From contig NC_092670.1 in assembly GCF_964355755.1 (NCBI RefSeq), positions 19,281,201-19,345,200 of the forward strand: a stretch of DNA of 64,000 nucleotides, in the 5' to 3' direction. The first letter of the stretch is position 1; every line of letters starts with the position of its first letter. The notes under the pieces are model-generated. The model ran no database searches and was not told where the DNA came from. It worked only from the letters and a program-made list of their open reading frames with translations. Source of the DNA: Antedon mediterranea (taxonomy: Eukaryota > Echinodermata > Crinoidea > Comatulida > Antedonidae). Shown piece by piece: positions 6,725 through 32,800 of the stretch. Position numbers and translations under genes: made by a program.

Positions 6725-7289
6725 TTCGTAGAAGACTGCAAGCTTTTAACTATTTTTAATCAAATATCGTAAGTAGCACCAACATATTGCCAATTGGAAG
6801 TTCCGGTTTCTTCTCACCAATTGGATTTCGATTAATTTATTCTGACTAAATTAATAATTCATTTTTTCTTTTAGTGTTTATTTCAGTAACTTGTATCATT
6901 TTATCATAAAATTGCTATAATTATTTGAACTATCATAGTATATTTTTGGAAGTACAAATTTTCAAAAATATAGCCAAATGTTGACCCTTTCATTTTACTA
7001 TATCATAATTAACATGCGCAGAATCACATAATGTGTTTTGCGCATGTTACCTCAACATATATTAAAAAAGTCGAGAACTAGTTACTTTTTCTCATTCTCA
7101 CAGATTTCCTCATCTTTATCGTTTCAAATTAATTAATTAAATTTCAGTATATCACCGGGCGGTTTCGAATTAATGTTCATGCCTAATGTGTTTATAAATA
7201 TAAAAGTATCTCTTCGGAGATCCCGCCTCGTGAATAAGAATACTGAAAGATGAGGGCGTATCAATTTGATCTCTGGCGTGCGTACAACT
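6725..7289. other. 3' flank of the protease gene
   Basis: AT-rich sequence after the stop codon. No canonical AATAAA is seen close by; an ATTAAA variant occurs near 7136. It probably contains the 3' UTR. It is followed by a TA-rich stretch and then the composite satellite. No gene seen. Confidence 0.4.
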
Positions 7290-10200: not shown

Positions 10201-10480
10201 GACCCTTTTATTTTTTTACATACAGTAACTAGTTACTATGGCTCTATAAGATCATAATTACACAATATATGCGCATATTTGGCAATATTATTGCATAATT
10301 ATTGAATTTTAAAAAGTGGATATTTTGGGCATTTTTCGAAAAATGGGCAAATTTCGACCCTCTTATTTTTTACATAACTAGGCTATGGCTCTATAAGATC
10401 ATAATAACAATATATGCACATATATGGCAATATTATCAAATAATTTTTGAATTTTAGAAAGTAGATATTTTGGCCATTTT
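7290..10480. repeat. Composite satellite of nested palindromic units
   Basis: Two related unit types. The outer type (about 7290-7640 and 10200-10480) repeats TTGCATAATTATTGAAT, TATTTTGGGCATTTTTCG and TTACTATGGCTCTATAAG. The core type (about 7640-10200, roughly a dozen irregular copies) contains ATGCGCAGAGTCGAATAATG followed by TTCTGCGCATGT, which is an imperfect palindrome. That is bracketed by TGGTTACTATAGCA and its inverse TGCTATAGTAACCA, and alternates with TCCCTGTACTATAGTACAGG, another palindrome. Both types share the word CGACCCTTTTATTTTTT. Copies occur in both orientations, so the block can fold extensively. Long apparent ORFs on the minus strand are just repeated satellite translated and are not genes. 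Confidence 0.85.
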
Positions 10481-11014
10481 TGTCGGAACTCAGGTATGGG
10501 GTTTTTTTAAATTTTCCATATTGAAATGAAATGACCATATCTGACCATTTTATTTTGCCATCATTTGTTACTATATACTATGAAAATGTCAACCCTTTTA
10601 TCTGTTGACATAACTGGTTAAGTATGATGCTATATGATAACTGTGCATATACCAGCAGGTACTATTAACAATATGGGTAGTGTGGTAACATGCATAGAAA
10701 AAAATAGAATCTGCACATTTTTTTACCTATTTTATTTTGGGAGATTTTTGGAAAAGTCTATATGATTTGGTCAAAAAATAGACAATACCGTCACTAGTTA
10801 AACATTATACATCAATAAATAATATACATACTGATATCAATTTCATCTGTTTCATACACCTTTTGTTTATATAATAAATATTTCAATAAATATATTTTCC
10901 AACATTTGACCTGTTGCAATTGTCATATTGATGGCATTACTTGAAGCTGTACATATGGCCATTGAATATTTAGCTCGGCCCTCAAATTAGCTTGGCACTC
11001 AATTAGCTCGGCCT
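10481..11014. other. PICK1 3' flank
   Basis: Diverged satellite sequence to about 10800, then unique AT-rich DNA. Contains the candidate polyadenylation signal of the minus-strand PICK1 gene at 10731-10736. No other gene seen. Confidence 0.4.
10731..10736 (-). promoter_or_regulatory. Candidate polyadenylation signal for PICK1
   Basis: AATAAA on the minus strand, about 280 nt downstream of the PICK1 stop codon. Placement is plausible for a 3' UTR end, but similar words are common in this AT-rich DNA. Confidence 0.35.
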
Positions 11015-14000
11015 TCAATCACCAAGTAAATTACCAATAAATGGTTCAACAGGCTCAACAGAATCATTTTCCGCCCCAGCATCACCTGTCAGCAATTCGT
11101 CATCATCATCGTCGTCTTCTTCTTCATCTCCTAAGAACTCTTCCTGCTGTCCATAACTCAATGTTGTCTTCAGAATATCAACTTCGATTGGAAACACATC
11201 AGCATCTTTCATCTGTGTGTGACTGTCTTTGTGATACTGAGCAAATGTGGACACTAAACGTTGCAACTGGAACACAATATCTTGAACTGAAGAAGATAAT
11301 ACATTTTTTTCTCATTCACCATTTAATAAATTCCAGTATAGATTGGATATATACATAAATACATCTTGTTATCTTTATTTGCTAAGAAAACCTTCATACA
11401 ATAAAATTCAACGGCAGCTAAAGGCTGAATTATTACATTTTTACAGTAAAATGACATTTACAATCAAAATTTTATAGCAAAAGAGAGGATGGTTAAACAC
11501 TGGACTAATTAGTAAGTAATCTTGTTTAAAATGGCAACTGTGTACATTTGTTTTTACATGTTTTCTTTAAATTGTTCATTATTATGCCTAAAGGTAATTG
11601 GGGAATCTGCCTTAATAGTGTAATTGACTTGTCAAAAAACACACAGAGAGAAGTCATATAACATACCATGTTTTTGATCAAGTAGCTCCATCTTTACCAT
11701 GACATCTGACCTCATTTTGGCAAATCTTGCTCTTGCTTCTTGACGACAACGAAGAATCAACCTAAGCGAGAAAATTAATATTTAATTAATATTTCTGTGG
11801 GAATATTTTTTTCCAAAGATATTATCAAAGTATTTAAATGAAGTGATTTTACACAAACAAGTGGGCCTATCAATATGCAACTGCTTATAGACATACTGAC
11901 TGCAAATACAGTATTGACTAATTGAAACAACAACCCCATGACAGTAAAGTGCCTTCCAGTGCCAGCCAGAAACTGCTAATGTGCATTGCATCAAACTGAA
12001 ATGCTATAGCGATGGCGCTGCATTATATATAAAAAAAATCCTACCTGTATTCATAATTGCCTGTCTCTACCCTGTAAAGGGGTTCTCCAAGAGCAGCGTA
12101 TGCATACTCCTCATCATCCATCTCTTTTACCTTTAAACAGTATGACTATAAAAAAACAAACATAAACTTAAGTTCTAAGAACTGCAGTACTGTATACTCG
12201 CATTCAATTCAAGGGCTAAATTTAGTACAAGGTTGATAAGCAATATATACTATACTCAGCTGAGCTGGCTAATCTACCTTCACCTGTGTTAAGTAGGCAA
12301 GTGGACCGGAAAAGCGGAGCTTAAGGAGTGACCAAATATAAAGCTCTGTCTACATTATCAAACGGTGATGTGCCCAAATATGGTAGTGATATGCCCAAAT
12401 ATGGTAGTAGTGATATACCTAAAAATCCATAAAACCTTACCAGATATTCAAACTTTGCATCAGCATATTTTCTTATTGTGAGTCTTGTGTCTGGAATGGC
12501 TTTACTAAGGAATGTTCCAAGGTCTGCTAGCATCTAAAAAAAAAACAAGAGTCATACTGTAAAAACAAAAAATGCTGTATTCCGTGTTCTAATTCCTATG
12601 TAACAACAATTGAATGACTCTCAAAGACATTCTGCAAGATGACGGTCATCACACAGATACAGTATGTCAACTGCAGGATAGGTAAAGTAATAGACATTAA
12701 ACTTACTGGCTTGACAGTTCTAAGTAGTCTTATTCCATACTTCTCTACAGTACGATGAGCATCGCCAAACTTTATAAACGCTTCACATGCCTTTGGTTGT
12801 GGTTCACGAGCACCGATAACGGCAAACAAATCTCCAAATGCTGAAAGCAAAGATATATACTTCTTTAAATTCTGTAGAATCCTCTAGGGCTAGCTGACAT
12901 AGTGTACTACACTAATATCATAGGGATGTAGCTACAGAATGATTTGAGTGGATTCACATATTAAAACTTCTTTAAATTCTCTCAAATCTTCTAGGCCTAG
13001 CTGACATCAAGTCCTAATACCACAGAGACGTAGATACAGAATGCTTTAGAGCGGATGCACAAGGTGCAACTAGAAGATTTTAAAAAGGCTTCAGTTGGTA
13101 GTGAGAAATAAAACACCATGAGAACAAACTGGTGTCTGTCGAATTACTAACTAACATAAATAATTCCATTACCATTCTCATTCATAGGTATATTGAAAGT
13201 TAAAGAGAAATTGATAATTTTCTTACCTTTGTGCGTTTGTGACATGTCGTAGAAAGATCGTAAAAGTCTCTTGGAATGTTCCATCAGGCCTTTGTACATG
13301 TTGTGTGTTCTCTCTAATTCTTCAAGCTTTTTAACAAGTAAATCTGAAATCAATTTAAAATAAGCTACTTGTTTTAAATCTGAAATTATATAGTAGAATA
13401 AAAGGTTTTAGTACACCATTGTCTTTATGTTATGTGGAAAGTAATGTTATGTGGAAAACTCTCTGTCAACAAAATGTACAATTGCAATGGTTTGATTGTT
13501 CATTCAGAGACTGTATTGTAAACAGCAAACATTCTACTAAAAACAACTACAGTACTTTGCACATCACAAATATCCCACAAAACTTGGGTTACTGTAAGCT
13601 TCCCTGTGATACAAACTTACCATTGCACAGAATGGCTCTGCTTAGGCCTAGAGCATCGGCAGTAGAGGAACTAAGGTGTTCTACAACCCTATGCTTTGCT
13701 TTTTTCATTACAATATCCAGCGTTTTTCCTTGCTTCGGATCAGCCTGTAGCTTATTATAGTTAATGACAACATCGCTCTGAAAAAATAAATTAATATGCA
13801 GAATAATATGCAGTAATAACTAACTACTAATATGATGAATACTGTACACATAGCACACAGTTGTACAATAGTAAAATCAGTGGTGTAACGCAGAGCCCTA
13901 AGGTCCCTGGTTTAGGAAACCTAAGTGGCCCTTCAAGTTCCAACACTGGAGGCGTTTTTAGCCTTTTTCGGCATATTTTAATACCTGTTTTTTCCTCTGG

Positions 14001-16361
14001 GCACTGCTCAGGGGCTCATGGATTTAGAAAGTGAGTGCTCATAGCTTTTACGCCACTGGGTAAAATACATAAATTCATCGTACAGCATGCCCTAATAATA
14101 TGACATATCGTTTGTACAGTAGTAAAATTCATCATACAGTACCTTAACACCTTGGATTGTCCTTGCAACCTCAACTTTGGTACGACCTTTGACTGATTTG
14201 CCATTCACTCCAACAATCTCATCTCCTGCAGCAAGAGTGCCATCCTTAGAGGCCGGCGTGTTGTCAAACACCTGTACAATGTATAAACAAGGACACATGG
14301 GGGCACCGCCACCAATACTGATCCCAATGAGATTTTGTGCATCTTTCTTCAATGTTACACTTCCTGGGATAGCATCCATGCCCCTAATTTAAAAAGAAAA
14401 TTTCTAATAAAGAAACAAGTTCAATATAATCAGAAATACATGCTATACTATATTTATAATGTCAAATAGTCACACTGTAAATAAATAGCTTCTTCACATC
14501 CAAAATAATTCAATTCAGGCTTTGTTTTGATTTATTAAATTTTCAGGTTACTATGTAATCTTATTATACAGTGCCATTGCTCAAGTCTATTCTGAATGAC
14601 ATCACTAAGATTTTGTTCTCAAAAATATTCCTTGATATATTGAAATAAACTTTGAGCTAATGTACTTGTAGACTGTTAATGTTTAGTAAAAGGAATGTTT
14701 GTTACTAAGGTAGGTAAAGCATGTAAAAACATAAACACATACAGTACTGTACAACATGTAATTTGACAAACAAAGACTACCTAATATTAATAATAAATCC
14801 AAAGTATTAAAATTAAAGCTCTTACCATTGTATTTTGTTAATCATTAAATACTGTAGACTGTAACTGGCATTAGGTATTAATTAACACAACCCATAAATA
14901 ATGCAGGCAAAGAGCAAAAGCATCACAGTGAACATAGTATTAATGCTATACTGTACAGTATACTCTATTATACAGTATATTATTACTGAAATAAGAAAAA
15001 TGGACCGCAAATATTCCCTAATGTACAGTACAGTAGCACTACTGTATATCTTGTTCAAGATTGTACCTGTACATACCGCATGCAAACTAGTAAAACCCCA
15101 AATCATCACAACTTGTCCTCAGCAAGCTATACTACTGAATGACTTTTGACCTTTTTTAACTTGTTATACAGTACACTAGGATGAATTTACATTGAACACA
15201 GATTAAAATAACCAGTTGAATTGCATGATGCTTACATTGGAAATAAATTTTCTTATTGATCTCACTGATACTTTGTTCAATGGAAACCACCTTATGTATA
15301 TGTTAATCGTAATAATTATGCAAATCCACATGCAACAAGTAATGTTTTTAGTATTACCATCCATGGTGATGACCCTAATGAACCACACATCCAAATCCCT
15401 TGCTTAAACCAAATAAGTGTCACTCACTGTTTATCCTCTACAGCGATAAAACCATCGTTATTTTTTATAATTTCCAACGGCATTGTTTCAATATTTTACT
15501 AATTGTCGATTTTGATTCAGATTGTAAGATTCTGCAAACTTTTTATGGCTCTGTACAACTTCCGAAATCCGTATTTCTCTATCAGATTATTCTGTTAAAT
15601 GCAAGCAAGCTTTCTAGGTTAAATTTATTATCACTTCACCTCATTGGCAGTAATTATGGCCCAATAATAATAATATTTTCTGTATTTACTCTAGAATTAC
15701 AATCAGTAAATCACATTTTATTCACACAAGCAACAAAACAAATGAGATATAATTATTATAAATATCAAACTCTAGGTAGTTTAGGCCTAGGCCTTATAAT
15801 ACAGCATGCTACTGACAATACATACTACTGTACAATGAATGAGGTGTAAAATACTAGGCTATCTATATGACTCCTCATTCACTCTACACATACGTAAATA
15901 ATAATACAGTAGGCCTACTACTACTAGGCCTAGCCTAGATATAATATAATTATAATTATTATTCATTAATTATAATACTTTTATTAACTCGCATGCGACT
16001 AAATAAAACATAAATATGCCTACTGTATATCAACCATGACAGGATGGAATAGCTAATCATATAGATAGTAGACTAAAAGGATGGTCTTTCCAAATACGAT
16101 TTACTGGCTAGGCTAGGCACACCAAATTAGATACTTTGTTTAGCAGGTCGAACGTCGTCAGCTCCGCTGTCGATGATGATGAACTGAATGAATTGTCAAA
16201 ATACAGGCTTAGCTTAGCGGTCATATATATGGCCTAGCAAAATTCCCATTAGAAGTATTAAGGACTTACCGTAACATTTTGATAACCTGCAATTATGTAC
16301 TTCTTTGTCAACACAATAAACAGAATACTTACATGCGGTCTTCTTCTAAGTCAAAGTCCAT
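11015..16361 (-). CDS. PICK1: PICK1 (PRKCA-binding protein), PDZ plus BAR scaffold
   Basis: Nine coding exons in transcription order: 16361-16333, 14383-14143, 13777-13621, 13343-13227, 12840-12707, 12533-12441, 12145-12045, 11761-11667, 11286-11015. All introns are GT-AG with matching phases, giving 412 aa (the human protein is about 415). The start MDFDLEEDRM matches the family's acidic N-terminus. The PDZ domain (about 18-100) has the ligand loop KDAQNLIGISIGGG and the CPC motif at residues 40-42. A linker with ADALGLSRAILCN leads to the AH/BAR domain (about 142-358; ELERTHNMYKGL, SQTHKAFGDLF, IPDTRLTIRKY, REPQPKACEAF). The acidic tail (about 373-388, EEEDDDDDDE) is also conserved. In other animals PICK1 dimerises through BAR, binds curved membranes and uses PDZ to traffic AMPA receptors, PKC-alpha and transporters, and it acts in acrosome and dense-core vesicle formation. 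Nothing is truncated. Confidence 0.97.
12335..12425. mobile_element. MITE family 2, partial copy (PICK1 intron 6)
   Basis: Starts AAAGCTCTGTCTACATTATC and contains the family words GATGTGCCCAAATATGGTAG and TGATATACC. Other copies are at 34399-34535, 46022-46095, 51035-51150 and 55096-55235. Confidence 0.6.
12862..13075. repeat. Tandem duplication of about 106 bp in PICK1 intron 4
   Basis: Two diverged copies in direct orientation, about 12862-12966 and 12967-13075. Both contain TTCTTTAAATTCT, TAGCTGACAT and TACAGAATG in the same order. Intronic, away from splice sites. Confidence 0.65.
13878..14058. mobile_element. hAT-like MITE in PICK1 intron 2
   Basis: Terminal inverted repeats CAGTGGTGTAA and TTACGCCACTG bound the element. 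The flanks are AGTAAAAT and GGTAAAAT, a 7-of-8 match that looks like an 8 bp target duplication, as expected for hAT transposons. A related copy without clean ends lies at 57941-58125 (shared words TGGTTTAGG, AAGTGGCCCT, GTGAGTGCTCATAGCT). No coding capacity. Confidence 0.7.
14405..16332. other. PICK1 intron 1
   Basis: About 1.95 kb, AT-rich, with several TACAGTA- and AGGCCTA-type words (e.g. 15780-15800 and 15900-15940). Open stretches here (e.g. 15400-15849) have low-complexity, non-conserved translations and are not credible exons. No other feature seen. Confidence 0.5.
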
Positions 16362-16404: not shown

Positions 16405-16460
16405 AGACGCGACACGTACGTACGTCATCTCTCATCGCAGGTATATAAACTATACCATAC
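16405..16460 (-). promoter_or_regulatory. Candidate PICK1 promoter
   Basis: On the minus strand a TATA-like TTTATATACC (about 16440-16450) lies about 85 nt before the PICK1 ATG, and a CRE-like TGACGTACG (about 16415-16423) lies between them. Spacing fits a transcription start a few tens of bases upstream of the ATG. The TATA-like part overlaps sequence that recurs inverted near 25702-25735. Inference from motifs only. Confidence 0.3.
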
Positions 16461-16657
16461 TGGCGAGTAAATCATGTTTTACTTTTTAAACCTCGCAACG
16501 TCTGGTTGAAAAGGCTACTCGGACCAATAATTTCTATTAGCCTAGGGGTTATTGCGATTTGGACGTTTCTGATTGGCTGTAGCCATGGACTATATTGATT
16601 AACACTGTTCTGATTGGTTGTAGCTTTGAATACATCTTCTCGGAACTCGTCCTTAAT

Positions 16658-18230
16658 ACAATAGCAATTTAGCACAGTGTTTTACTATATAACCAGATAA
16701 ATAATAGGAAACATTTAATAATTTGATAAATGACATTTAAATAGCAATTTAGGTAAATGTCTTTTGAAATGAAATTAAATAAATTATAACCAATTTGGTT
16801 AGAGTAAAACACAATGATAAAGAATAGGAAACATTTAATAATATGATAAATTACATTTACATAGCAATTTAGCACTGTGTTGTACTATAACCAATTTGGT
16901 TAGAGTAAAACACAATGATAAAGAATAAGAAACATTTAATAACATGATAAATGACATTTAGCAATTTAGCACTGTGTTTTACTATAACCAATTTGGTTAG
17001 AGTAAAGCACAATGATAAAGAATAGGAAACATTTAATAACATGATAAATGACATTCACATAGCAATTTACCACTGTGTTTTACTATAACCAATCAGATTA
17101 GAGTAAAACACAATGATAAAGAATAGGAAACATTTAATAATATGATATATAACATTTACATAGCAATTTAGCACTGTGTTTTACTATAACCAATTTGATT
17201 AGAGTAAAACACAACGATAAAGAATAGGAAACATTTAATAACATGATAAATTACATTTACATAGCAATTTATCACTGTGTTTTACTATAACCAATTTGGT
17301 TAGAGTAAAACACAATGATAAAGAATAGGAAACATTTAATAATATGATAAATTACATTTACATAGCAATTTATCACTGTGTTTTACTATAACCAATTTGG
17401 TTAGAGTAAAACACAATGATAAAGAATAAGAAACATTTAATAACATGATAAATGACATTTACATAGCAATTTAGCACTGTGTTTTACTATAACCAATTTG
17501 GTTAGAGTAAAGCACAATGATAAAGAATAGGAAACATTTAATAACATGATAAATGACATTCACATAGCAATTTAGCACTGTGTTTTACTATAACCAATCA
17601 GATTAGAGTAAAACACAATGATAAAGAATAGGAAACATTTAATAATATGATATATAACATTTACATAGCAATTTAGCACTGTGTTTTACTATAACCAATT
17701 TGATTAGAGTAAAACTCAACGATAAAGAATAGGAAACATTTAATAACATGATAAATTACATTTACATAGCAATTTATCACTGTGTTTTACTATAACCAAT
17801 TTGGTTAGAGTAAAACACAATGATAAAGAATAGGAAACATTTAATAATATGATAAATTACATTTACATAGCAATTTATCACTGTGTTTTATTATAACCAA
17901 TTTGGTTAGAGTAAAACACAATGATAAAGAATAGGAATTTAATAATATGATATATAACATTTACATAGCAATTTAGCACTGTGTTTTACTATAACCAATT
18001 TGGTTATGGTAAAGCACAATGATAAAGAATAGGAAACATTTAAAAATATGATAAATGACATTCACATAGCAATTTAGCACTGTGTTTTACTATACCAATT
18101 TGATTAGAGTAAAACACAATGATAAAGAATATGAAACATTTAATAATATGATAAGTTGCTAGCACTGTGTTTTACTATACCAATTTAGTTTTGGATAAAG
18201 AATATGAATTTAAAGAATGGATATAATATG
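16658..18230. repeat. Left arm: tandem array of the ~101 bp monomer (about 15 copies)
   Basis: Monomers repeat every ~101 bp with landmarks GCAATTTAGCACTGTG, ACCAATTTGGTTAGAG, AATGATAAAGAATAGG and ATTTAATAACATGATAAA. The rarer variant ACCAATCAGATTAGAG recurs at about 17089 and 17595, a five-monomer period, so short higher-order repeats exist. Short ORFs encoding repeated hydrophobic peptides come from the array and are not genes. Confidence 0.92.
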
Positions 18231-18589
18231 ATATGATACAATATGATTTTCTCCCAATTAGTAAGACATTTTGGAATACTGCGTGCGTAGTGCACCTAAC
18301 AAGATCATGTTCGCTATTTAAAACTCACATTTTAAAACCGTAAACGCATAAATTTGCGGACATACTCGTAAAACACACTTCCAGAGATTTAATAATTTTA
18401 ACAGTACTACAAAATCCATAATATAAAGTAGTATAGATTTGTACAAAAAGAGCAGAACAATTAAATTAACTGTCATTACATCTACTGAACTGTCTCATTA
18501 CATCTACTGAAAAATTCATCGCGATGAATTTATTTATAATACACCAATCAGATCACACGCAATTAGTATGGAATGCCAGTTTATGCGAT

Positions 18590-18850
18590 GATAAAATCGC
18601 GTCGATGATGCAATGAAAATTGCGTCGATGTGATGAAAATTGCGTCGATGAATATAGTATTGATGTAATGATGTGATGAACATTGCGTCGATGAAAATTG
18701 CGTCGATGTAATGAAAATTGCGTTAATGTGATGAAAATTGCGTCGATGAAAATTGCGTCGATGAAAACTGCATCGATGAAAACTGCATCGATGAAAAAAA
18801 AAATAATTTTCATCGATGCAGTTTTCATCGATGAAAATTGCGATCTCCCT
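18590..18850. repeat. GTCGATGAAAATTGC repeat, inner left arm
   Basis: Irregular 15-20 bp repeats of GAAAATTGCGTCGATG and GAAAACTGCATCGATG. The right edge (about 18785-18840) folds back on itself. Inverse copies form the array at 19255-19505. Confidence 0.85.
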
Positions 18851-19254
18851 GCCGGTATGATTTGAATATGATGTCATGGATGCTGGACATCTGGATTTTA
18901 TGTACTGAACTGGTGGATTAACGGAAGCAATTAGCTAGAAGATATAATGTGTCCGAAAGGACAATAATGGATCCATTGCTAAAATGTGTTGACAATAAAT
19001 CACTAAAATGTTAATCAGTGCATATATTTCAACATTGTTTTAGTGCGCGATCACTGCGCGCTTGTCTATAACGCGCGCTAGCGCAAGCGGTAAACATGTT
19101 TATCATATCAAAATATTCAGAAACCGTCAATTTTTAGCAACATAATAACATTATTAACATCATTATTAACATCATCATTTACTTTACTAGTAGTCATTTT
19201 CATCATTGATTGAATTAAAACCATTTGGAATTTTTATAATCAATTAAATTCATC

Positions 19255-19505
19255 ACATCAATTTTCATCGATGCAGTTTTCATCGACGCAATTTTCATCG
19301 ATGCAGTTTTCATCGACGCAATTTTCATCGATGCAGTTTTCATCGACGCAATTTTCATCGACGCAATTTTCATCGATGCAATTTTCATCGACGCAATGTA
19401 AATTGCGTCGACGCAATCTACATTGCATCGACGCAATCTACATTGCGTCGATGCAATTTTCATCGACGCAATTTCATCATCGACGCAATTTTTATCATCG
19501 CCAAA
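19255..19505. repeat. CATCGACGCAATTTTC repeat, inner right arm
   Basis: Reverse-complement counterpart of 18590-18850: alternating CATCGACGCAATTTT and CATCGATGCAGTTTT units of 15 bp, then a variant with ATTGCGTCGACGCAATCTAC. Together the two arms enclose about 400 bp of unique sequence. The repeated SMKIA- or FSSTQ-type peptides read from it are translations of the repeat. Confidence 0.85.
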
Positions 19506-20149
19506 AACTTGTGTAAAACGGCGTTCCAGAAGTGACGAATCGCATATTCGCCGTTTATTGTTGAGGCGCGTAAACAGTGTGCGCAATGCACGTTTTCTTC
19601 CCATGACGAGACGAATCGATATTCGACTCTTCGTGTGACGAATAATCGTCAAATTATAATTAATATAATTAATTAATGAAATAAGATACGCAGTTGATGT
19701 TTGCATCAATTGTTCTTTAGAATAAATACTTTCGAAATACAAAACAAAAAATGTGTGGTGAGTGACGATATGTTCAATCATGGACCTATAAATTACTAAT
19801 TTATAGGTCCATGATTCAATATCTGTAGCTTCAATTCAAACATAATGTAACAGAAAATTTGAAGCGTAAAAAACGTTCGTTTACACAACACTTTTTTTAT
19901 ACTTTATTATTGATTATTATATTATACAGGAATACTATTTATTTCCTCATTTCTACCCAAGAATAAACAATTTTTGGATACAAAACTTTATGTGAATTAC
20001 ATTACCAAAATATTAAAACGAGGATAAAAAAACATCGCGTAAAATACTCGTACTCAAAAGCTTCTGAAATTTGTAGATATATGTCATGAAAAAGAAATTT
20101 GACATTCCCAATAATTTTTTTTGGCAAAAATGTAATATATGAAACATAC

Positions 20150-21990
20150 AATTTACATAGTTTATCATTGTTTTTTATTAGAACCAATATGGTTACACAG
20201 TTAAACATAGTGATAAAGAATAGATACTTGTTAGGTTACTACCCTACCCTCTAGTTTGAAGCGACATTATAAATTCATCGAGAAAAAAAACGTATCATAT
20301 TCAGAAACGTTTGACATTTTGTATAGATATGTTCAATAAGACAAAACAAATTATAAATTTCAAGACAAATCGATGATTTCCATTATTTGCATTTCACAAA
20401 ATTCACACTTATGAAAGACCATACATTTTCAACATTTCCTTTTTTCTGTGTACCGAGTTTAGAAACTTTTTGAATACCAGACGTATTTTTTTGTGATGCT
20501 TTTTCATTTGAATTGTAGTATAAAATGTCATTGAAACGAGATAAAAATCATACAAGACATGTTATAATAGGTTGCTCTATATACATAACAAAATTAGTTC
20601 TTTTTTTTGGTAAGAAACGCCAATGAAGTAGAAAGTTATTTCAGATGTAGTGTGCATTTATACGTCATTAATAGTAGGCCTAAAATATAATATTAAATAT
20701 TATAAAGAATATCAAACATTTTATGTTATGAAAAATAAAATTGACATATAAGTTTATCATTGTGTTTTACTATAACCATTTTGGTTAAAAGTTAAACACA
20801 GTGAGTGATAAAGAATAGAACTGTTTTAGTTTATTTAACCCTAACCCTAGTTTGAAGCGATCACATATTTAATATTCATCGCTAAAAATACGTATCGTCT
20901 TGAAAAACGTTTGATATTTGGTAGATATGTTCAATATAGGTTCTTACATCTATAATGCAAAAGAAATATCCTAATAGTTTTATTTTGATTTCTGAGAATC
21001 ATCAATGAAGTAAAAATGTGTTGGAAATGTATTGTCTTTCATAAGTGTAAATGTTTAGAAATGCAAATTATTAAAATCACGAATTTGTCTTGAAACTTTT
21101 ATTTTTTGTTTGTTTTATAGACGTAAGAACCTATTGAACATTTTATTTACCAAATTTCAAATGTTTCTGAATACGATACGTATTTTTTCGCGATGAATTA
21201 AGTATGTGATCGCTTCAAACTAGGGTTAGAGTTATATAACCTAAAACAGTGTCTATTCTTTATCATTGTGTTTAACTGTGTAACCAAATTGGTTCTGTAA
21301 AACAAGATGATAAACTATGTAACTTGTATTTATTATTATTACATTATATGTATCCTATAATGTAATATGAAAAATAAAATGTACATAGTTTATCATTGTG
21401 TTGTACTAAAACCAATTTGGTTAAAAGTTAAACACAGTGTTAAAGAATGAACTGTTAGGTTATTTAACCCTAACCCTAGTTTGAAGCGATCACATACTTA
21501 ATTCATCGATAAAAATACGTATCGTCTTAAAAAACGTTTGAAATTTGGTACATGTTCAATATAGGTTCTTACATCTATAATGTAAAAGAAATATCATAAT
21601 TTGTTTTATTTTGATTTCTGGGAATCATCAATGAAGTAAAAATGTGTTGGAAAATGTATGGTATTTCATAAGTGTACATTTTTAGAAATGCAAATTATTA
21701 AAATCACGAATTTTTTGTGAAATTTATATTTTTTGTTTGTTTTATAGACGTAAGAACCTATTAAACATATCTAACAAATTTCAAAAGTTTCTAAATACGA
21801 TACGTACCTTTTCGCGATGAATTTATTATGTCGCTTCAAACTAGGGTTAGGGTTATATAACCTAAAACAGTATCTATTCTTTATCACTGTGTTAACTGTG
21901 TCACCAAATTGGTTCTGTAAAACAAGATGATAAACTATGTAACTTGTATTTATTATATTATTACATTATATGTATCCTATTCTTTTCATA
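20150..21990. repeat. Three ~600 bp palindromic units in the spacer
   Basis: Units at about 20150-20700, 20741-21345 and 21380-21990. In units 2 and 3 the left half (TAGTTTGAAGCGATCACAT, ACGTATCGTCTT, TATAGGTTCTTACATCTATA) is mirrored by the right half (TATAGACGTAAGAACCTAT, ACGATACGTA, GTGATCGCTTCAAACTAG), around a centre containing GTCTTTCATAAGTGTA. Each half also carries a diverged piece of the array monomer (TTTATCATTGTG). In unit 1 the centre appears in the opposite orientation (TACACTT-type to CACTTATGAAAGACCATAC). Telomere-like CCCTAACCCTAG lies in the left arms. Confidence 0.75.
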
Positions 21991-22009
21991 ACGTTTAGAT
22001 AATAAGATA

Positions 22010-25000
22010 TGTTTAATATAATATTTTGCTATGTAAATAATATCATATAATAAATGTTTCATTATCATTGTGTTTTACTGTAACCAAATTGGCTATAGTA
22101 AAACACAATACTAAATTTGTATGTAAATGTATCATATTATTATATGTTTCCTATTCTTAATTTGTGTTTTACTGTATCCAGCACAGTGCTAAATATCATT
22201 TATCATAGTTAAAATGTTTTACTCTAACCAAATTGGTTATAGTAAAACACAGTGATAAATTACTATGTAAATGTCATTTATCATAATTATTATTAAATGT
22301 TTCATATTCTTTATCATTGTGCTTTACTCTAATCAAATTGGTTATAGTAAAACACAGTGCTAAATTTCTATGTGAATGTCATTTATCATGTTATTAAATG
22401 TTTCCTATTCTTTATCATTGTGTTTTACTCTAACCAAATTGGTTATAGTAAAACACAGTGCTAAATTGCTATGTAATGACATTTATCATATTATTAAATG
22501 TTTCCTATTCTATATCATTGTGCTTTACCATAACCAAATTGGTTATAGTAAAATATGGTGCTAAATGTAAATAATCATTATTATTAAATGTTTCCTATTC
22601 TATATCATTGTGCTACTTTACCATAACCAAATTGGTTATAGTAAAACACAGTGATAAATTGCTATGTAAATGTCATTTATCATATTATTAAATGTTTCCT
22701 ATTCTTTATCATTATGTTTTACTTTAACCAAATTGGTTATAGTAAAACACAGTGCTAAATTGCTATGTAAATGTCATTTATCATATTATTAAATGTTTCC
22801 TATTCTATATCATTGTGTTTTACCATAACCAAATTGGTTATAGTAAAACACAGTGATAAATTGCTATGTAAATGTCATTTATCATATTATTAAATGTTTC
22901 CTATTCTATATCATTGTGTTTTACTATAACAAAATTGGTTATAGTAAAACACAGTGCTAAATTGCTATGTAAATAATCATTATTATTAAATATTTCCTAT
23001 TCTTTATCATTGTGTTTTACTCTAACCAAATTGGTTATAGTAAAACACAGTGCTAAATTGCTATGTAAATGTCATATATCATATTATTAAATTCCTATTC
23101 TTTATCATTCTACTTTACTTTAACCAAATTGGTTATAGTAAAACACAGTGCTAAATTGCTATGTAAATGTCATTTATCATATTATTAAGTGTTTCCTATT
23201 CTTTATCATTGTGTTTTACTTTAACCAAATTGGTTATAGTAAAACACAGTGCTAAATTGCTATGTAAATGTCATTTATCAAATTATTAAATGTTTCCTAT
23301 TCTATATCATTGTGTTTTACTCTAACTAAATTGGTTATAGTAAAACACAGTGCTAAATTGCTATGTGAATGTCATATATCATATTATTAAATGTTTCCTA
23401 TTCTTTATCATTGTGTTTTACTATAACCAAATTGGTTATAGTAAAACACAGTGCTAAATTGCTATGTAAATAATTATTATTAAATGTTTCCTATTCTTTA
23501 TCATTGTGTTTTACTCTAACCAAATTGGTTATAGTAAAACACAGTGCTAAATTGCTATGTGAATGTCATATATCATATTATTAAATGTTTCCTATTCTTT
23601 ATCATTGTGTTTTACTATAACCAAATTGGTTATAGTAAAACACAGTGCTAAATTGCTATGTAAATAATTATTATTAAATGTTTCCTATTCTTTATCATTG
23701 TGTTTTACTCTAACCAAATTGGTTATAGTAAAACACAGTGATAAATTGCTATGTAAATGTCATTTATCATATTATTAAATGTTTCCTATTCTATATCATT
23801 GTGTTTTACTATAACCAAATTGGTTATAGTAAAACACAGTGCTAAATTGCTATGTAAATAATCATTATTATTAAATATTTCCTATTCTTTATCATTGTGT
23901 TTTACTCTAACCAAATTGGTTATAGTAAAACACAGCGCTAAATTGCTATGTAAATGTCATATATCAAATTATTAAATTCCTATTCTTTATCATTCTGCTT
24001 TACTTTAACCAAATTGGTTATAGTAAAACACAGTGCTAAATTGCTATGTAAATGTCATTTATCATATTATTAAGTGTTTCCTATTCTTTATCATTGTGTT
24101 TTACTTTAACCAAATTGGTTATAGTAAAACACAGTGCTAAATTGCCATGTAAATGTCATTTATCAAATTATTAAATGTTTCCTATTGTATATCATTGTGT
24201 TTTACTCTAACTAAATTGGTTATAGTAAAACACAGTGCTAAATTGCTATGTGAATGTCATATATCATATTATTAAATGTTTCCTATTCTTTATCATTGTG
24301 TTTTACTATAACCAAATTGGTTATAGTAAAACACAGTGCTAAATTGCTATGTAAATAATTATTATTAAATGTTTCCTATTCTTTATCATTGTGTTTTACT
24401 CTAACCAAATTGGTTATAGTAAAACACAGTGATAAATTGCTATGTAAATGTCATTTATCATATTATTAAATGTTTCCTATTCTATATCATTGTGTTTTAC
24501 TATAACCAAATTGGTTATAGTAAAACACAGTGCTAAATTGCTATGTAAATAATAATTATTATTAAATGTTTCCTATTCTTTATCATTGTGTTTTACTCTA
24601 ACCAAATTGGTTATAGTAAAACACAGTGCTAAATTGCTATGTAAATGTCATATATCATATTATTAAATTCCTATTCTTTATCATTCTGCTTTACTTTAAC
24701 CAAATTGGTTATAGTAAAACACAGTGCTAAATTGCTATGTAAATGTCATTTATCATATTATTAAGTGTTTCCTATTCTTTATCATTGTGTTTTACTTTAA
24801 CCAAATTGGTTTTAGTAAAACACAGTGCTAAATTGCTATGTAAATGTCATTTATCAAATTATTAAATGTTTCCTATTCTATATCATTGTGTTTTACTCTA
24901 ACCAAATTGGTTATAGTAAAACACAGTGCTAAATTGCTATGTGAATGTCATATATCATATTATTAAATGTTTCCTATTCTTTATCATTGTGTTTTACTCT

Positions 25001-25335
25001 AACCAAATTGGTTATAGTAAAACACAGTGCTAAATTGCTATGTAAATGTCATATATCATATTATTAAATTCCTATTCTTTATCATTCTGCTTTACTTTAA
25101 CCAAATTGTTTATAGTAAAACACAGTGCTAAATTGCTATGTAAATGTCATTTATCATATTATTAAATGTTGCCTATTCTATATCATTGTGTTTTACTCTA
25201 ACCAAATTGGTTATAGTAAAACACAGTGATAAATTGCTATGTAATGACATTTATCATATTATTAAATGTTTCCTATTCTTTATCATTGTGTTTTACTCTA
25301 ACCAAATTGGTTATTGTAAAACACAGTATATTTTA
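22010..25335. repeat. Right arm: inverted tandem array of the ~101 bp monomer (about 30 copies)
   Basis: Exact reverse complement of the left-arm monomer, e.g. GCTATGTAAATGTCATTT, TTTCCTATTCTTTATCATTG, TCTAACCAAATTGG, AAAACACAGTGCTAAATT. One left monomer (17462-17562) and one right monomer (22370-22470) differ at about one position once one is reverse-complemented. A variant lacking AATGTTT before CCTATTC, with TTCTGCTTTAC after it, recurs near 23090, 23970, 24665 and 25070, showing higher-order duplication of 4-9 monomers. Confidence 0.92.
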
Positions 25336-25701
25336 CCTCAACAACATCGCCGCAAAATTGTTTATACGTTTATTTTGATTGGCTAACTAAAGTACGGTCT
25401 AATGAATATTGATATCAGAAGATTCCCTAGCTTAGTGAAAAAATTTTATTACCAAAAATATGCTGATTACGTCACTACCGGAAGTTGTAGTCTAGCATGA
25501 TGCAGACGCAATTGATTATGTACGTTTGTTAAACATATAAAAAGCTGTAAATTACCACAAAACGACAATAGGAAAGAATTCAAAGAAATGCCCTACGTGT
25601 TCAAAATCATTGTTTTAATATAGTCTGTATGTATAACTAACAATTGACCTTGTGGAAGAGCGTATAAATTTAATTTAAAGTAAAACATGATTTACTCGCC
25701 A

Positions 25702-26892
25702 ATTTGGTATTGGATATATAGCTCCTCATCGACATCGATTATTAGAGTTCAAAGGTTAATCTGTTTGCTGCCCCTATCATCAGGTGGTTGTTTATTTTCA
25801 TAAACTTTGGTTTAATAATACTGCATGGTTTTTTTATTTTTTTCTCAGAAAAATCGACATGTCCTCTCTATTTTCAATTTATAATATAAACAAAATTGAA
25901 AAGAAAAACCAATTTTCTAATTAATAATCCAGACATTTACATTATTTGACACCGCGAATCAGATAGGCCTAGGCCTATAGGCCTACATTATTTATTAAAT
26001 ACAACACTGAGTTCTGCACAACGTTAGTCGAAGACAAAAAAACACGTTCGTAATCATATCCTATCATAAAATTGTATAAAGTGCAATATCATCTTATATA
26101 AATATTGCGATTTAAACAAAATAAATAAACTTCCTTATCTTAATTGTTATTCCAACAAAACGAAATGGGGTAATTAAAAGAAGAGCAACACAGAATAATT
26201 ACAATGATATATTTGTTTTCATATGCTTATAGGAAACTAAAATGTACACTAATAATCTTCTTTGTCATTCCCCCCCCCCCCCCTAGAAATACTAATATTA
26301 CAATTATGCGATGGTTAAATTGTATTGGATCCGCTCCTTGCTGTCTTTCCAGAAATGTGGATATAAAAATGTTGATGATTCACCGCTATTTATTTATTTA
26401 AATTTTCTTTCTTTAAAAAAAACCAAAACAAACACGGGTATATTGCAAAGCTTTATTAGGTCTAATAATCTAAAAAATCATTAATATGGAAATCTTGAAA
26501 CGAGATACTATATATAAACATAAGTGATAGCCCCCACCACCTGTTTGTACCATTTTGACGCAACTCAAGGACGAAAGTAAGTAAGATATTTGACGAATCA
26601 CAAGCGATCGATTACTCGAAGTATATAGGTATTCGCTTGCGTTGCGTCTACGTCCTTGTGCGGTCTGTGAGGACCAAACTTGAACTTGTATCACTAATTT
26701 TAGACGCAACGCAAGGACGTAATTAGCGCATAATAGCTGAGGAATTGACCATCATCTCCGTATCAACAACGTTTGACGTATCGCATCGGTTATACGACGA
26801 TCCTGCTGAGTAAAGGCTATTTATACATTCTGTCAATGTTAATAACGTAAATTGATACAAAAATAGATTTTGGTTTACACTATTGAATAGTA
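25702..26892. other. Intergenic region downstream of the MOLO1-like gene
   Basis: No gene seen. 25702-25735 (TTGGTATTGGATATATAG) is an inverted, diverged copy of the sequence beside the PICK1 promoter. A poly-C run lies at about 26271-26283. A minus-strand AATAAA at 26452-26457 could end the MOLO1-like transcript. Confidence 0.45.
26555..26735. mobile_element. MITE family 1, degenerate copy B
   Basis: Contains GACGCAACTCAAGGACG, AATCACAAGCGATCG, TTCGCTTGCGTTGCGTC and AGACGCAACGCAAGGACG. These are the family's core words with rearranged ends. Confidence 0.55.
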
Positions 26893-29800
26893 TTATTGAT
26901 TCGAATATTTGCGCCCAGTGTTCGTTGGCTTATTTCCACATCTAGGGTCCTTTAGTTTTCCGTCATCCATCTTTTTAGGTATCTGTACTCTGCAACAAGT
27001 ATTTGAAACAAGGCACATAAAGATAAGAAGGACCACCAAGGCTCCAATCACTGTTATTGAGTATACGATCTGTAAACTTAAGCCTGGTCCATTTTCTATA
27101 GATTTGTGAAGTGTTGTTATTATATAATCCAAAGCCATATACGTATTGTTCTTATTGCCGCCAAGTCGACTACGGCCGCTGTCAACAAGCCGCGCGTATT
27201 CCAATTCTGTGACCAGTGGCCACACGTCACTACCAAAAGCGAAAGCAAGCTGTAGAATAAACACAGATATTTTATTTAGTAGCCTATAGGGATCGTTATG
27301 CTAAAACGGTGTAAAACTAAATAAATGTCTACAAAAATGTTATTATATAAAAGATTTGATATAGCTAAATAAAAAATCAAATTGAGAAAGGAATAGGTGA
27401 AATCGCAGTTTAATTATAATATCTCGTTAAATAAATCTAACGTGTGCGCGCGGAGAAACAAAACCATAGGCCTAATTAAGTATATAAAAATAAAGTGTAT
27501 TATTATCTTTTTAAACCTTTTAAATAACACGAGTGTGACCATGCGCTTACTAACGCATTAACAACTCCAATAAAAATACATAAAAACATATCAACGTAGT
27601 TCAACATTACTTAAATTCCGATCACCTGTCTCATTACACTTTCATTTCTCGCAATAAAATCAAACAGTTCTGTTATAAATCTACATATTCACGCTTTCTA
27701 ATTACTCTTAATTTGCAGAATGCATAAACGTTCCCCGAAGGAGTGGTAATACGACTGTATGCAGATACAGAACACATGCGGATCCACCTGAACTTCCATC
27801 TTCACACAAAAACTCCCACTCACCCAACCAACCAACCAACCACCCGCCAACCCTTCCATATTCACATGTCTCATCAACATTTCCTACGATGTTTTTTATA
27901 GTATGGCGATGTTTTTTTGTTTTATAGTATGGCAATAATCGAGCTATTAGCAGCGGTTTGAAGGTCGACATCTTAAGAAATCTGATTAGTGAAAAATAGG
28001 TGAATTTAGATAACAGTACTTGCGCTTGTAGAGACTATTGAAGAGGGCTAGAAGGTTTGGCCGGAAGTCATTGGTTGGAAAATATTTGATGCGAATAATT
28101 CGCCCAGTGAAAGAACAGTTAAAATCGTTAATCATTAATATGATTTAGTAGGTCAAATTAGTTTTTAAAGTCAGACCAGGCAATGTATATCCACACACTC
28201 CACCACTCCTAGTTAAAGTTAATTATTCTTCTCTCTGCTCTGTCAATCAGAAACTACATTATTTGTGTTCAACATGGTTATGAAGAAATTGAAAAGCATA
28301 ATGCATTTTGAAAAAGATATTGATTATTTTTCAACCGTGAGCTATTTTCATATACAAGATAAAATTGTTCCTACTGAGTATAGAAAATCGATTACTTTAA
28401 TTTTCTGTAATTTAAATACAAGGTGAATTGGAATTGAAATATTATATAACGCTGTTCTTTCTTAGAAATTGTGATATTGGTATTTCGTAATTTAAATAAT
28501 CTAAGCACAGAGAACATTTTTGTGTGTTACCATAATTATTACTAAAAAAATTCAAATTCTTGTACCGATCAAAAATAATTTTAAAAAAGACAAACGTAAT
28601 TAAATTATAGATTTCCAAATCCTACTTAACTTGCGTGTCCGAGCTAAATTTGGAGGTTAAATTTAATTTATCTACTAAGGAGATATTAGGCTCAAAATAG
28701 ACAAAGCATTATAGAGCCAGATTATGCATATAAACGCCGATGTATGATTGTGAGAATAATGAAATAATATTGTGTATTGTGATATCGGGCCATACCAGCA
28801 AGTGTTGGTTATAGCTATAGATAACCATTCGTGTTTGTTTGTATAGAATGCAATAGGCCTACCGTATTGAATAATAATTCATATAATACAACACTCTGAA
28901 TTAGAAACAATTAATACTTAAAAAATAATTCATTTCTTAAAATGGTTGTACTGTATTTAGGCCAAATATAGGTTTTAAGTTTGTTTAAACTTTTATATTT
29001 ATATTATTATAGGCTTACAGCATGTGCATAACCATAATTACTTGCACTTTCAATATTTACATTAAGTGCTAGTTTTATGGTTTTGCAGTAATTATTACCG
29101 ATAGCAAACAATAAAAGTGAAAATTGAGAATGAATTAATAATTATCGTAAAATGGCTGATAACGCATGATACAGTATATTTATACAGATGGTTGATGTGT
29201 ATATGTTTGAGTGGAAGTGAAGTAATAGGTGAAGTGAAATAAAACGACAAAAAAATGTTCAGAAAAATATAGAAAATAAAAGATAAAATAAGAAAAGAAA
29301 AGGGAAAATATATTTTAAAGAAGAAAGTTTAAAAATAAAATAAATGAAAATGAAAAAAATTAGAAAGAAAATGCACAAAAATAAAATAAGAAAAACTTAA
29401 AAAAGAAAAAAAAATGAAAAAGAAAAACAAAAATAAGAATGAAAAAAGGTAAATATAAAAAAGAAAAAATAATTTTTAAACAGACAAAAAAGAGAGGGAA
29501 AGGGAAAAAAGAGAGTAAAACAGAAAACAAAATAAGCACGGCGTGCATCAACCATTTGGAGTGAATTTTTGCTGAAAACATTACAATATGCCTAGCCTAT
29601 TAACTTGATAATAGACATAAGCACGGGGTGCATCAACCATTTGGAGTGAATTTTTGCTGAAAACATTAAAATGCCTAGCCTATTAACTAGACAATAAACA
29701 TAAGCACGGGGTGCATCAACCATTTGGAGTGAATTTTTGCTGAAAACATTAAAATGCCTAGCCTATTAACTAGACAATAAACATAAGCACGGCGTGCATC

Positions 29801-32800
29801 AACCATTTGGAGTGAATTTTTGCTGAAAACATTAAAATGCCTAGCCTATTAACTAGACAATAAACATAAGCACGGGGTGCATCAACCATTTGGAGTGAAT
29901 TTTTGCTGAAAACATTAAAATGCCTAGCCTATTAACTAGACAATAAACATAAGCACGGCGTGCATCAACCATTTGGAGTGAATTTTTGCTGGAAACATTA
30001 CAATGCCTAGCCTATTAACTTGACAATAAACATAAGCACGGGGTGCATCAACCATTTGGAGTGAATTTTTGCTGAAAACATTACAATGCCTAGCCTATTA
30101 ACTTGACAATAAACATAAGCACGGGGTGCATCAACCATTTGGAGTGAATTTTTGCTGAAAACATTAAAATGCCTAGCCTATTAACTTGACAATAAACATA
30201 AGCACGGGGTGCATCAACCATTTGGAGTGAATTTTTGCTGAAAACATTAAAATGCCTAGCCTATTAACTTGACAATAAACATAAGCACGGGGTGCATCAA
30301 CCATTTGGAGTGAATTTTTGCTGAAAACATTAAAATGCCTAGCCTATTAACTAGACAATAAACATAAGCACGGCGTGCATCAACCATTTGGAGTGAATTT
30401 TTGCTGAAAACATTACAATGCCTAGCCTATTAACTTGACAATAAACATAAGCACGGGGTGCATCAACCATTTGGAGTGAATTTTTGCTGAAAACATTACA
30501 ATGCCTAGCCTATTAACTTGACAATAAACATAAGCACGGGATGCATCAACCATTTGGAGTGAATTTTTGCTGAAAACATTACAATATGCCTAGCCTATTA
30601 CCTTGATAATAAACATTTACCTGGTTATGTTCATATGCATAAAATATAACCACATTGTTATCACAGGTATCCCTATGAAACCAATCAATCAGAAGATATT
30701 TTGCAAACATGTACGCCTGCTCCTTCTTTGGTATAAAATCTCTATAATGAAAAACAAAAACATTATTACACTATATAAAGTAGGAACAATTGAATTAAGT
30801 AAACCTATAATGACACAAATCGAATAGGCACAAAGCTTGGTTCTTATTTGACGAAACGCGAGGTCGTACGCGTAGCGCAGGTGAGTTGACCAATCACAAT
30901 CGACAGTTCAGATGGTCTAGAAGATTCATGCCAAGTTGCCATTAAATTGTTCCATGACCACACCACCATGAACGTGATGACATTATTGCCTGTTTGTTAT
31001 TGTACCTGTATTATTAAAACACTATGCTAATAATAGATTAATACAAAACCAGCATTAACTCGATTTGCCCATGGGGCAGATTAATTATGTGTCAGTTTCA
31101 TCTTATTAATATGATTAGTTTTGAATATTATGATCATGAAAATTTAAAATGATTGATCAATAAACTGAGCAGAGTCTTAATCGAACCGAGTGGGGAATTT
31201 TGTGATTATCAAACTGCAAACACAAATAAAACAATATTGTGTGAAAACCTTAAAGAATGTCATGTTAGTTATCAAAACAAGATATTTACGGGGACCGTAG
31301 TTTAGCTGAAATAGTAAACCTCTGTGAATATGTGATCGATCAGCCCACGGGTCCCGGCGGTTTGAGTGCTGCACGGTATTATGTCATTGAGGGGGAGGGA
31401 TGATACAAGTTATGCACATCTTTTGTAGGCCTAATATTTTATTTCAATAAGTGCTGCTTTTGCTTCTTACGTCAGAAGATATTGATGATTGTGATTTTGT
31501 ATTTTTTGGACACTTCTAATGTGTTAGTACTATCGAATTTACAACTATACTATGGCAATAAGTATAATCAGTTTTTGAAATGGGTATTTATTATTCATGC
31601 AATTTAGTAAAGATGATTTATATTGTGACAGTAATAGGCTTTACTGGCATCTTCAGACTGCAGATTTGTTCCTATCTATCAGTTAGAATGATCTATAGAT
31701 GCAGTAGCTCGGTGGATACCACTCCTATTTTTATACGGTATAAATGGTATGACATCATCATTGTATTGGCGTTTTTGGCGTTTAAGTACCTTGACGTTTT
31801 GTTAAACTTAGTATAGGACGTTTAATTCTAGTGTACAGCACCGAATGATTTTGGCGTGCTACTGTGTGATCGCGTTTAATTGTAATTAATGCTGTTTATA
31901 TTGTCGATCTAGTTACTGTGTTTGGAGAAGAAGGCCAAACAGCTGGGGTTTCACAGAGAACAAATAAAGTATTACTGTATTATCAATGTCAGTGATTAAT
32001 ATGATTTTATATAACCCATTTTAAGGCCTCTTATGAGGTTCGTATGATATATGGGCTCGTTCAGGCTTAGTTAGTCGGGTAAGTTTGTTGGTTTCTACAC
32101 AAGTTAATACTAATAATATCCTGGATTTATATAGCGCCTCTGTTGAGAAACCTCTCTAAGCGCTGAACATTATTACCCCAGTCATTTTTTGTGTGGATCA
32201 AACACGTATGGAAACATACTCCCATAATACAGCTAGTAATCAGCTGTGTCAACCGGGTTCCCATTTATACATCTGGGTGGAGAGAGGCAAGGCTAAGTAA
32301 AGTATCTTGCCTAAGGATAGGCCTACAAGCAATGCGGCGATAATTGGATTCGAACCTCGATCTCACGATCAGTAGTCCAACGTCCAACACAATGCGCCAC
32401 ACGCCCTAATAATATAATGCGTGGTTCCCACTTGAGACGAAACACAAGGACGTAACGCAACATAAGGAATTTGACCAATCACAAGCGATTCGAGCTGTCG
32501 CTTGTCATTGGTCAACACGCTTGCGTTGCGTTTACGTCCTTACGTTGCGTCCTAGTGGGAACCAAGCTTTACAGTTAGTTATGACTGTGTGACCATGGAA
32601 TCCATTTACCACCCAGGATCGATATTCTATAAAACTATTTTGTTACTGGTCAGGCTTACTTACATGTCGATGGTCATCCATCCCACAAGTGCTACAACAA
32701 TGCGCAGGCCGACGTCATCATCTCCACAACCCGAATCACATAAACAGCTTGAATTCTGGATATCTTTCAGAGTTTCATCAATCATAATATCTATATTTTT

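Follow-up and report, generated by a model that had tools for sequence, protein, structure and literature searches.

Inverted tandem arrays beside PICK1 in the crinoid Antedon mediterranea as one copy of a dispersed family of probable foldback DNA transposons

Introduction

How do two arrays of the same tandem repeat come to face each other beside a gene, and did they arrive there as one mobile unit? The question is raised by a locus of Antedon mediterranea, a crinoid (feather star) with a 354-Mb assembly in 18 contigs. The window, i.e., the whole stretch of 64,000 nucleotides analysed here (C1:19281201-19345200), contains next to the PICK1 gene two oppositely oriented arrays of a ~101-bp monomer. 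An earlier sequence-only reading of this DNA offered two origins for the structure: it might be a foldback element of large size, or inverted duplication might have shaped the locus. The analysis presented below supports the former. The structure is a single dispersed copy of a DNA transposon, located at 16438-25724 of the window (9,287 bp). It is very probably a non-autonomous cut-and-paste element of the foldback kind, present in ~59 copies, for which a P-like enzyme may supply the transposase and the arrays may serve as binding sites.

Ends of the Element and Its Copies across the Genome

The element is bounded by terminal inverted repeats (TIRs) of 48 bp, in which the inner 25 bp are identical and the outer 23 bp diverged; the inverted match extends over 47-48 bp at 87% identity. 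The exact inverted 25-mer (16461-16485 and 25677-25701) is unique in the window even when three mismatches are allowed (0 in 100 shuffles). The sequence-only reading had recognised this 25-mer correctly but took it for the extreme ends of the structure, at 16461 and 25701, while it is only the inner half of the TIR. Termini at the 25-mer were rejected, as the target-site duplications (TSDs) put the true ends 23 bp further out, at 16438 and 25724. The fixed ends of the element read CAGGTATATA... and ...TATATAGCTC, and the 7-bp TSD CTCATCG lies flush against them at 16431-16437 and 25725-25731. A single locus has a chance of ~1% of showing a flush match of at least 7 bp in the same scan, and for this reason other copies were needed.

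A TIR 23-mer, searched in the assembly with at most one mismatch, gave 59 forward and 59 reverse matches, and the reversed-pattern control gave 0. The tallies of facing pairs, TSDs and monomer-core locations given below rest on the first 100 matches listed per search. From the 100 TIR matches, 49 facing pairs can be assembled, with a median length of 8.5 kb and a range of 2.4 to 22.8 kb, leaving two singles, i.e., an unpaired left end at C7:6825655 and a right end whose partner lies outside the matches listed. Twenty other copies were read as 10-kb stretches, 11 of them complete, which together with the window makes 12 complete copies; the ends of 35 further pairs were read as 121-bp stretches, and both ends were read in all 49 pairs.

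An exact 7-bp TSD flanks 45 of the 49 listed pairs, or 45 of 47 without the degraded copies L029 and L030, and it is present in all 12 complete copies, beside CAGGTA/TAGCTC ends. A script detected it in 30 of the 35 further pairs, and in three of the other five it was found on reading the ends. Pair 71 carries a 5-bp insertion in its TIR and ACATATC on both sides; in pair 51 another insertion interrupts the left TIR, and AGCCAGC stands on both sides when the true left end is taken. Pair 99 (L099, C7:30411610-30411730; copy at C7:30411685) lacks, in one TIR, precisely the outer 17 nt and has a perfect TSD, AACACGA, on both sides. The pairs without an exact TSD are pair 41 (5 bp shared), pair 33 (nothing obvious) and the older, degraded L029 and L030. 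A BLAST comparison of joined flanks with the fetched loci revealed no true empty site, the lone match of the L011 flank, on its own locus, being taken as an alignment overrun.

The similarity between copies extends beyond the TIRs. The left 340 bp have at least 40 full-length matches at 96-100% identity, ten of which share the top score (40 of 219 candidates scored), and the right end has at least 40 at 98-100% (40 of 60 candidates scored), the window copy included in both cases. The core of the ~101-bp monomer has 1,791 matches in the genome; the first 100 listed are all on C1, 99 of them inside TIR pairs and one (C1:58764) outside. An ordinary satellite, the outcome that the sequence-only reading itself had set against a mobile element, is rejected on this count. 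In viral contigs neither the TIR nor the monomer core has any match.

Mean pairwise divergence of six unique segments of the element is 0.4-1.2% (12-21 stretches each), with 0.46% for the inner segment A (20 of 21 stretches). The window copy and L010 have 9,283 aligned bp, of which 7 differ, and a further 11 columns with gaps; 14 of the 20 other stretches contain no piece of at least 150 bp dissimilar to the window copy. The family has moved very recently, because two copies on different chromosomes, L011 (C5) and L013 (C3), differ at only 1 of 9,066 bp, their TSDs being unlike. In their best stretches, L029 is ~85% and L030 88-95% identical to the window copy; therefore the lineage is older than the present burst.

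Some copies contain additional DNA. L019, L020 and L023 have in common a ~1.3-kb segment, 99.4-99.7% identical and absent from the window copy, and they lack the full segment C, which marks them as a subfamily; the extra DNA of L023 is 99.7% like that of L019. L012 (C4:31170782-31180781) holds repeated extra segments of ~3.4 kb, two of which are inverted copies of each other at 96%, and one type of which is common to L028.

Structure and Evolution of the Arms

The window copy and its TSDs are composed as follows:

16431..16437, no strand: left TSD CTCATCG, abutting the TIR end; identical 7-mer at 25725-25731
16438..16485, plus strand: left TIR, 48 bp; terminus identical in the other 11 complete copies
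16486..16660, plus strand: left flanking domain, 175 bp; unrelated to the right one, only the TIR being common in self-BLAST
16661..18238, plus strand: left array, 14 full ~101-bp monomers and a partial one; both edges degenerate
18240..18586, plus strand: unique inner segment A, kept between copies
18587..18797, plus strand: inner array on the left, with GATGAAAATTGCGTC as its 15-bp unit
18835..19250, plus strand: unique inner segment B, flanked by the 15-bp arrays
19259..19499, minus strand: inner right array of the inverted 15-bp unit GATGAAAATTGCGTC
19500..20128, plus strand: unique inner segment C; 19770-19822 form a 53-bp palindrome
20129..22000, no strand: central palindromic block; partial unit at 20129-20690, then two ~640-bp inverted-repeat units
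22062..25327, minus strand: right array, 32 ~101-bp monomers and one partial; orientation opposite to that of the left array
25328..25676, plus strand: right flanking domain, 349 bp; unrelated to the left one
25677..25724, minus strand: right TIR, 48 bp
25725..25731, no strand: right TSD CTCATCG

The oppositely oriented arrays, estimated by the sequence-only reading at about 15 and 30 monomers, are thus real. Tandem Repeats Finder detects two arrays with a period of 101, one at 16785-18154 with 13.6 copies and the other at 22215-25327 with 31.4, and their consensus units are reverse complements of each other. The two arms aligned in inverse orientation are mostly 84-90% identical over long stretches. 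The left array holds a higher-order repeat of five monomers (505 bp), and the right array repeats near-identical monomers at spacings of 7 and 9 monomers. Between TIR and array lie the flanking domains, which share nothing between the arms in self-BLAST.

The centre of the element contains a second inverted pair of tandem arrays, with the 15-bp unit, and the palindromic ~640-bp units; neither this centre nor the unrelated flanking domains had been noted in the sequence-only reading. The ~640-bp units (20691-21358 and about 21327-21980) are 89% identical, and their ends consist of diverged 101-bp monomers; one diverged inner monomer, outside the left array, lies at 20702-20795. A telomere-like motif, AACCCTAACCCTAG or its inverse, with variants, was also observed in the central palindromic units (20820-20873, 21197-21250, 21455-21515 and 21831-21893).

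The 101-bp monomer contains a 37-bp near-palindrome, self-complementary at 34 of 37 positions. This core departs from the consensus at 9.6% of positions compared with 16.6% for the rest of the monomer (23 diverged, hand-picked monomers, gaps counted). The 9-mer TGTTTTACT, common to TIR and monomer, occurs 85 times in the window, 83 of them within the element; by our estimate such sharing is too probable by chance to carry weight.

Array length varies between copies. The 12 complete copies have 12-14 full monomers in the left arm and 8-35 in the right arm, and cruder counts for the nine stretches that end at 10 kb, which may include an inner monomer, are 9-23 and 0-41. The 15-bp arrays are likewise variable in span, at 170-262 and 199-249 bp across 20 stretches. 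Among the 458 array monomers of the 12 complete copies, none of the 26 distinct left cores equals any of the 70 right cores. The nearest right core differs at 1 to 6 positions for 24 of the 26 left cores, and at 28 and 29 for the other two. Concomitantly, 96% of left and 88% of right cores have an exact counterpart in another copy, on the same arm. In the window copy itself, the excess divergence between arms is small (0.008), a value that 1 in 2,000 label shuffles attains. The two arms thus seem to derive from a single inverted ancestor but to change independently now: no left core equals a right core, yet most are only 1 to 6 differences apart. Homogenisation by pairing of the arms is not supported.

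Source of the Transposase and Alternative Explanations

A Pfam scan of 85 window open reading frames (ORFs), 17 of them within the element, detected no transposase at E 0.01 or better; 115 ORFs had been listed, and the 30 left out include some low-complexity ones inside the element. Inspection by eye of ORFs of at least 90 aa in the extra DNA of L012, L018, L019, L020 and L028 revealed no long transposase-like frame. As no transposase was found in the element, the enzyme seems to be supplied from elsewhere. A transposase made at another locus would excise the element and reinsert it with a 7-bp stagger. The arrays may offer this enzyme many secondary binding sites, by analogy with the THAP domain of Galileo, and would lengthen or shorten within each arm, not between arms, through unequal exchange or slippage.

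The most likely supplier would be a Galileo-like enzyme of the P superfamily, an attribution held with moderate confidence. The 7-bp TSD of Galileo (PMC2775673) counts for it. Other members of the P superfamily have TIRs of 30-50 bp (PMC3688188), a range that includes the 48 bp found here, and the TSD length agrees with the 7 or 8 bp of this superfamily. One of the strand cuts made by P transposase falls 17 bp within the TIR (PMC7776569), and the 17-nt recessed end of the copy at C7:30411685 would fit such a cut. P transposase domains have 35 matches in the genome, some in long open frames of up to 794 aa.

Two side observations concern these P loci. The 794-aa P-superfamily frame is present at three places (C1, C3 and C8) with the same score. 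L103 and L104 (C1:2820900-2826400 and C8:6206400-6211900) are 99.4% identical over 5.3 kb; they represent a P element that was duplicated recently and does not carry the TIR of the foldback family.

Several observations weigh against this account. The autonomous partner of the family was not found by searches for P domains, P loci and TIRs: none of the 35 P-domain matches lies within the 49 listed TIR pairs; 11 P loci, read over 5.0-5.5 kb each, show no TIR like that of the family, although ends beyond those stretches would be missed; and the inner TIR with another interior gave 0 exact matches, while the outer TIR gave one, which is the family itself. The recessed end is a lone case, and the TSD of Drosophila P and zebrafish P-like elements is 8 bp, not 7 (PMC7776569). 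The outer termini of the element, CAGG and GAGC, are unlike each other, and 43 TSDs display neither a palindromic preference nor a GTAGTAC-like consensus. The 101-bp unit is a putative transposase-binding site; the lower divergence of its palindromic core was measured in hand-picked monomers and with gaps counted. Finally, the right end is not reached by 9 of the 20 10-kb stretches, and reading was confined to the ends in most other copies. A wider proposal is more tentative and may well prove wrong: that a Galileo-like P lineage is active outside insects and has given rise to giant crinoid foldback derivatives, with satellite-sized docking arms that evolve as two arm-private satellites within one mobile element, and with a 17-nt staggered cut of which recessed ends keep a footprint.

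Another superfamily that leaves a 7-bp TSD, Dada-like or an unusual hAT, is an unlikely though conceivable supplier. The left terminus CAGG is frequent in hAT elements, and the TSDs of Dada elements measure 6-7 bp; those of hAT elements are normally 8 bp. The hAT element BuT4, for instance, has 8 bp (PMC2775673). Neither offers a ready account of the 17-nt recessed end.

That an element of the same type is moved by a Mutator-like (MULE) transposase we consider distinctly improbable. Elements of the Mutator superfamily generally leave TSDs of at least 8 bp, which speaks against them here. Mobilisation by a MULE has nevertheless been suggested for Tetris of Drosophila virilis (PMC4079207) and, judging by the title of the paper, for the nematode element Tm1. 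The TSDs of Tetris are 8-10 bp (PMC4079207), against exactly 7 bp in 45 of the 49 pairs here. No MULE domain was detected in the 85 window ORFs scanned, no genome-wide search for one having been made.

Large inverted repeats are prone to misassembly, and an artefact in a palindromic region might produce a similar picture. It is nevertheless very improbable, as the structure was assembled independently at 12 fully read sites, where the arms are unequal and the TSDs match; single arm lengths may be wrong. An immobile satellite locus reshaped by inverted duplication, the other origin once proposed for this structure, would show arms that look alike at the window locus alone, but it is refuted almost beyond doubt by the genome-wide facing TIR pairs with 7-bp TSDs and by near-identical 9-kb copies on different chromosomes.

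Genomic Setting

The left end of the element (16438) is 76 bp upstream of an ATG at 16361, a possible first exon of the neighbouring gene:

11018..16361, minus strand: PICK1 (PRKCA-binding protein) gene; joined exons match A. mediterranea PICK1

The protein encoded by the joined exons (16361 to 11018) is 100% identical, over 98% of the query, to the PRKCA-binding protein of A. mediterranea. The annotated isoforms X1 and X3 do not use ATG 16361; the start of X1 is at 15483, and X3 begins from an internal methionine of X1. The sequence-only reading, which had the element abutting the PICK1 promoter, was right about the neighbouring gene, but the adjoining candidate exon is absent from these isoforms.

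Other repeats occur in the window. Between a trypsin-like gene and PICK1 (6995-10481), ~88-bp units with inverted ends (TTTTGACATAAATGGTTACTATAGCA...) are present in both orientations and resemble miniature inverted-repeat transposable elements. A separate tandem array at 29532-30616 has 13 copies of an 83-bp unit (97% matches), and a minisatellite-like stretch at 34900-35800 is characterised by an extreme GC skew (0.575 in 35001-36000).

Comparison with Known Elements and Concluding Remarks

The closest analogue is Tetris (PMC4079207), which is likewise non-coding, with inverted arms in which ~220-bp tandem repeats lie between flanking and middle domains; its arm copy number varies, and its autonomous partner has likewise not been found. 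Only 3 structurally complete copies are described, compared with ~59 copies here. Its TIRs reach 1.7 kb, including the flanking domain and the tandem repeats, while those of the crinoid element have 48 bp and the flanks are unrelated. The nested pair of inverted 15-bp arrays is an addition relative to Tetris. The TIR-220 repeat of Tetris also forms kilobase-sized satellite arrays (PMC4079207), while only 1 of the first 100 core matches listed here is outside elements.

Galileo, a Drosophila element of the P superfamily (PMC3688188, PMC3573991, PMC2775673), is similar in its 7-bp TSD, in its ~40 conserved terminal bp and in carrying tandem repeats close to its ends, of ~210 bp in the F subfamily, whose number varies independently between the TIRs. 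Transposase-binding sites within the repeats were shown in Galileo and are putative in the crinoid element. Some copies of Galileo contain remnants of a P transposase gene; its TIRs measure 0.5-1.2 kb and its TSD consensus is GTAGTAC. The crinoid element, in contrast, has no coding sequence that we found, no TSD consensus and up to dozens of monomers per arm. Membership in Galileo by the consensus GTAGTAC was rejected on the 43 TSDs. By its structure the element may work like Tetris or Galileo; no sequence kinship with either is shown.

TU of sea urchins (Lieberman 1983, cited in PMC4079207), compared here by description only, is also an echinoderm foldback element. The arms of TU are said to consist of 15-bp tandem repeats, of which the inner 15-bp arrays are reminiscent; its TSD is reportedly 8 bp compared with 7 bp here. 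FB and FB-NOF of Drosophila melanogaster have long inverted arms of tandem repeats, a likeness again by description. The FB repeats are 10, 20 or 31 bp and the TSD 9 bp, versus 101 bp and 7 bp in the crinoid.

The resemblance to FB and TU, to which the sequence-only reading had pointed, therefore stands for the general structure: the family has long inverted arms with tandem repeats and fixed-length TSDs at dispersed sites. It does not extend to arms homologous along their whole length, as in FB and TU; here the match between the arms is confined to the 48-bp ends and the arrays. Because the flanking domains are unrelated between the arms, the element is a variant of the foldback kind and not a classical member, as also follows from its short TIR and the two nested array levels. 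The suggestion that the family has no described match holds in so far as no description of a crinoid foldback element was found in open-licence papers, which is no proof of absence.

How foldback arms grow and what they do is unsettled, and Tetris has been described from three complete copies (PMC4079207). The family reported here provides ~59 copies in one genome, many of them near-identical, with exact ends and differing arm lengths. Several questions are thereby made testable, i.e., the relation between array length and mobility, sequence exchange between arms, of which 12 copies give no sign, and the seeding of satellites by mobile elements. The family also puts inverted kilobase-sized arrays beside genes, here close to the possible start codon of PICK1, and, like Galileo, it could provide places at which chromosomal inversions arise.

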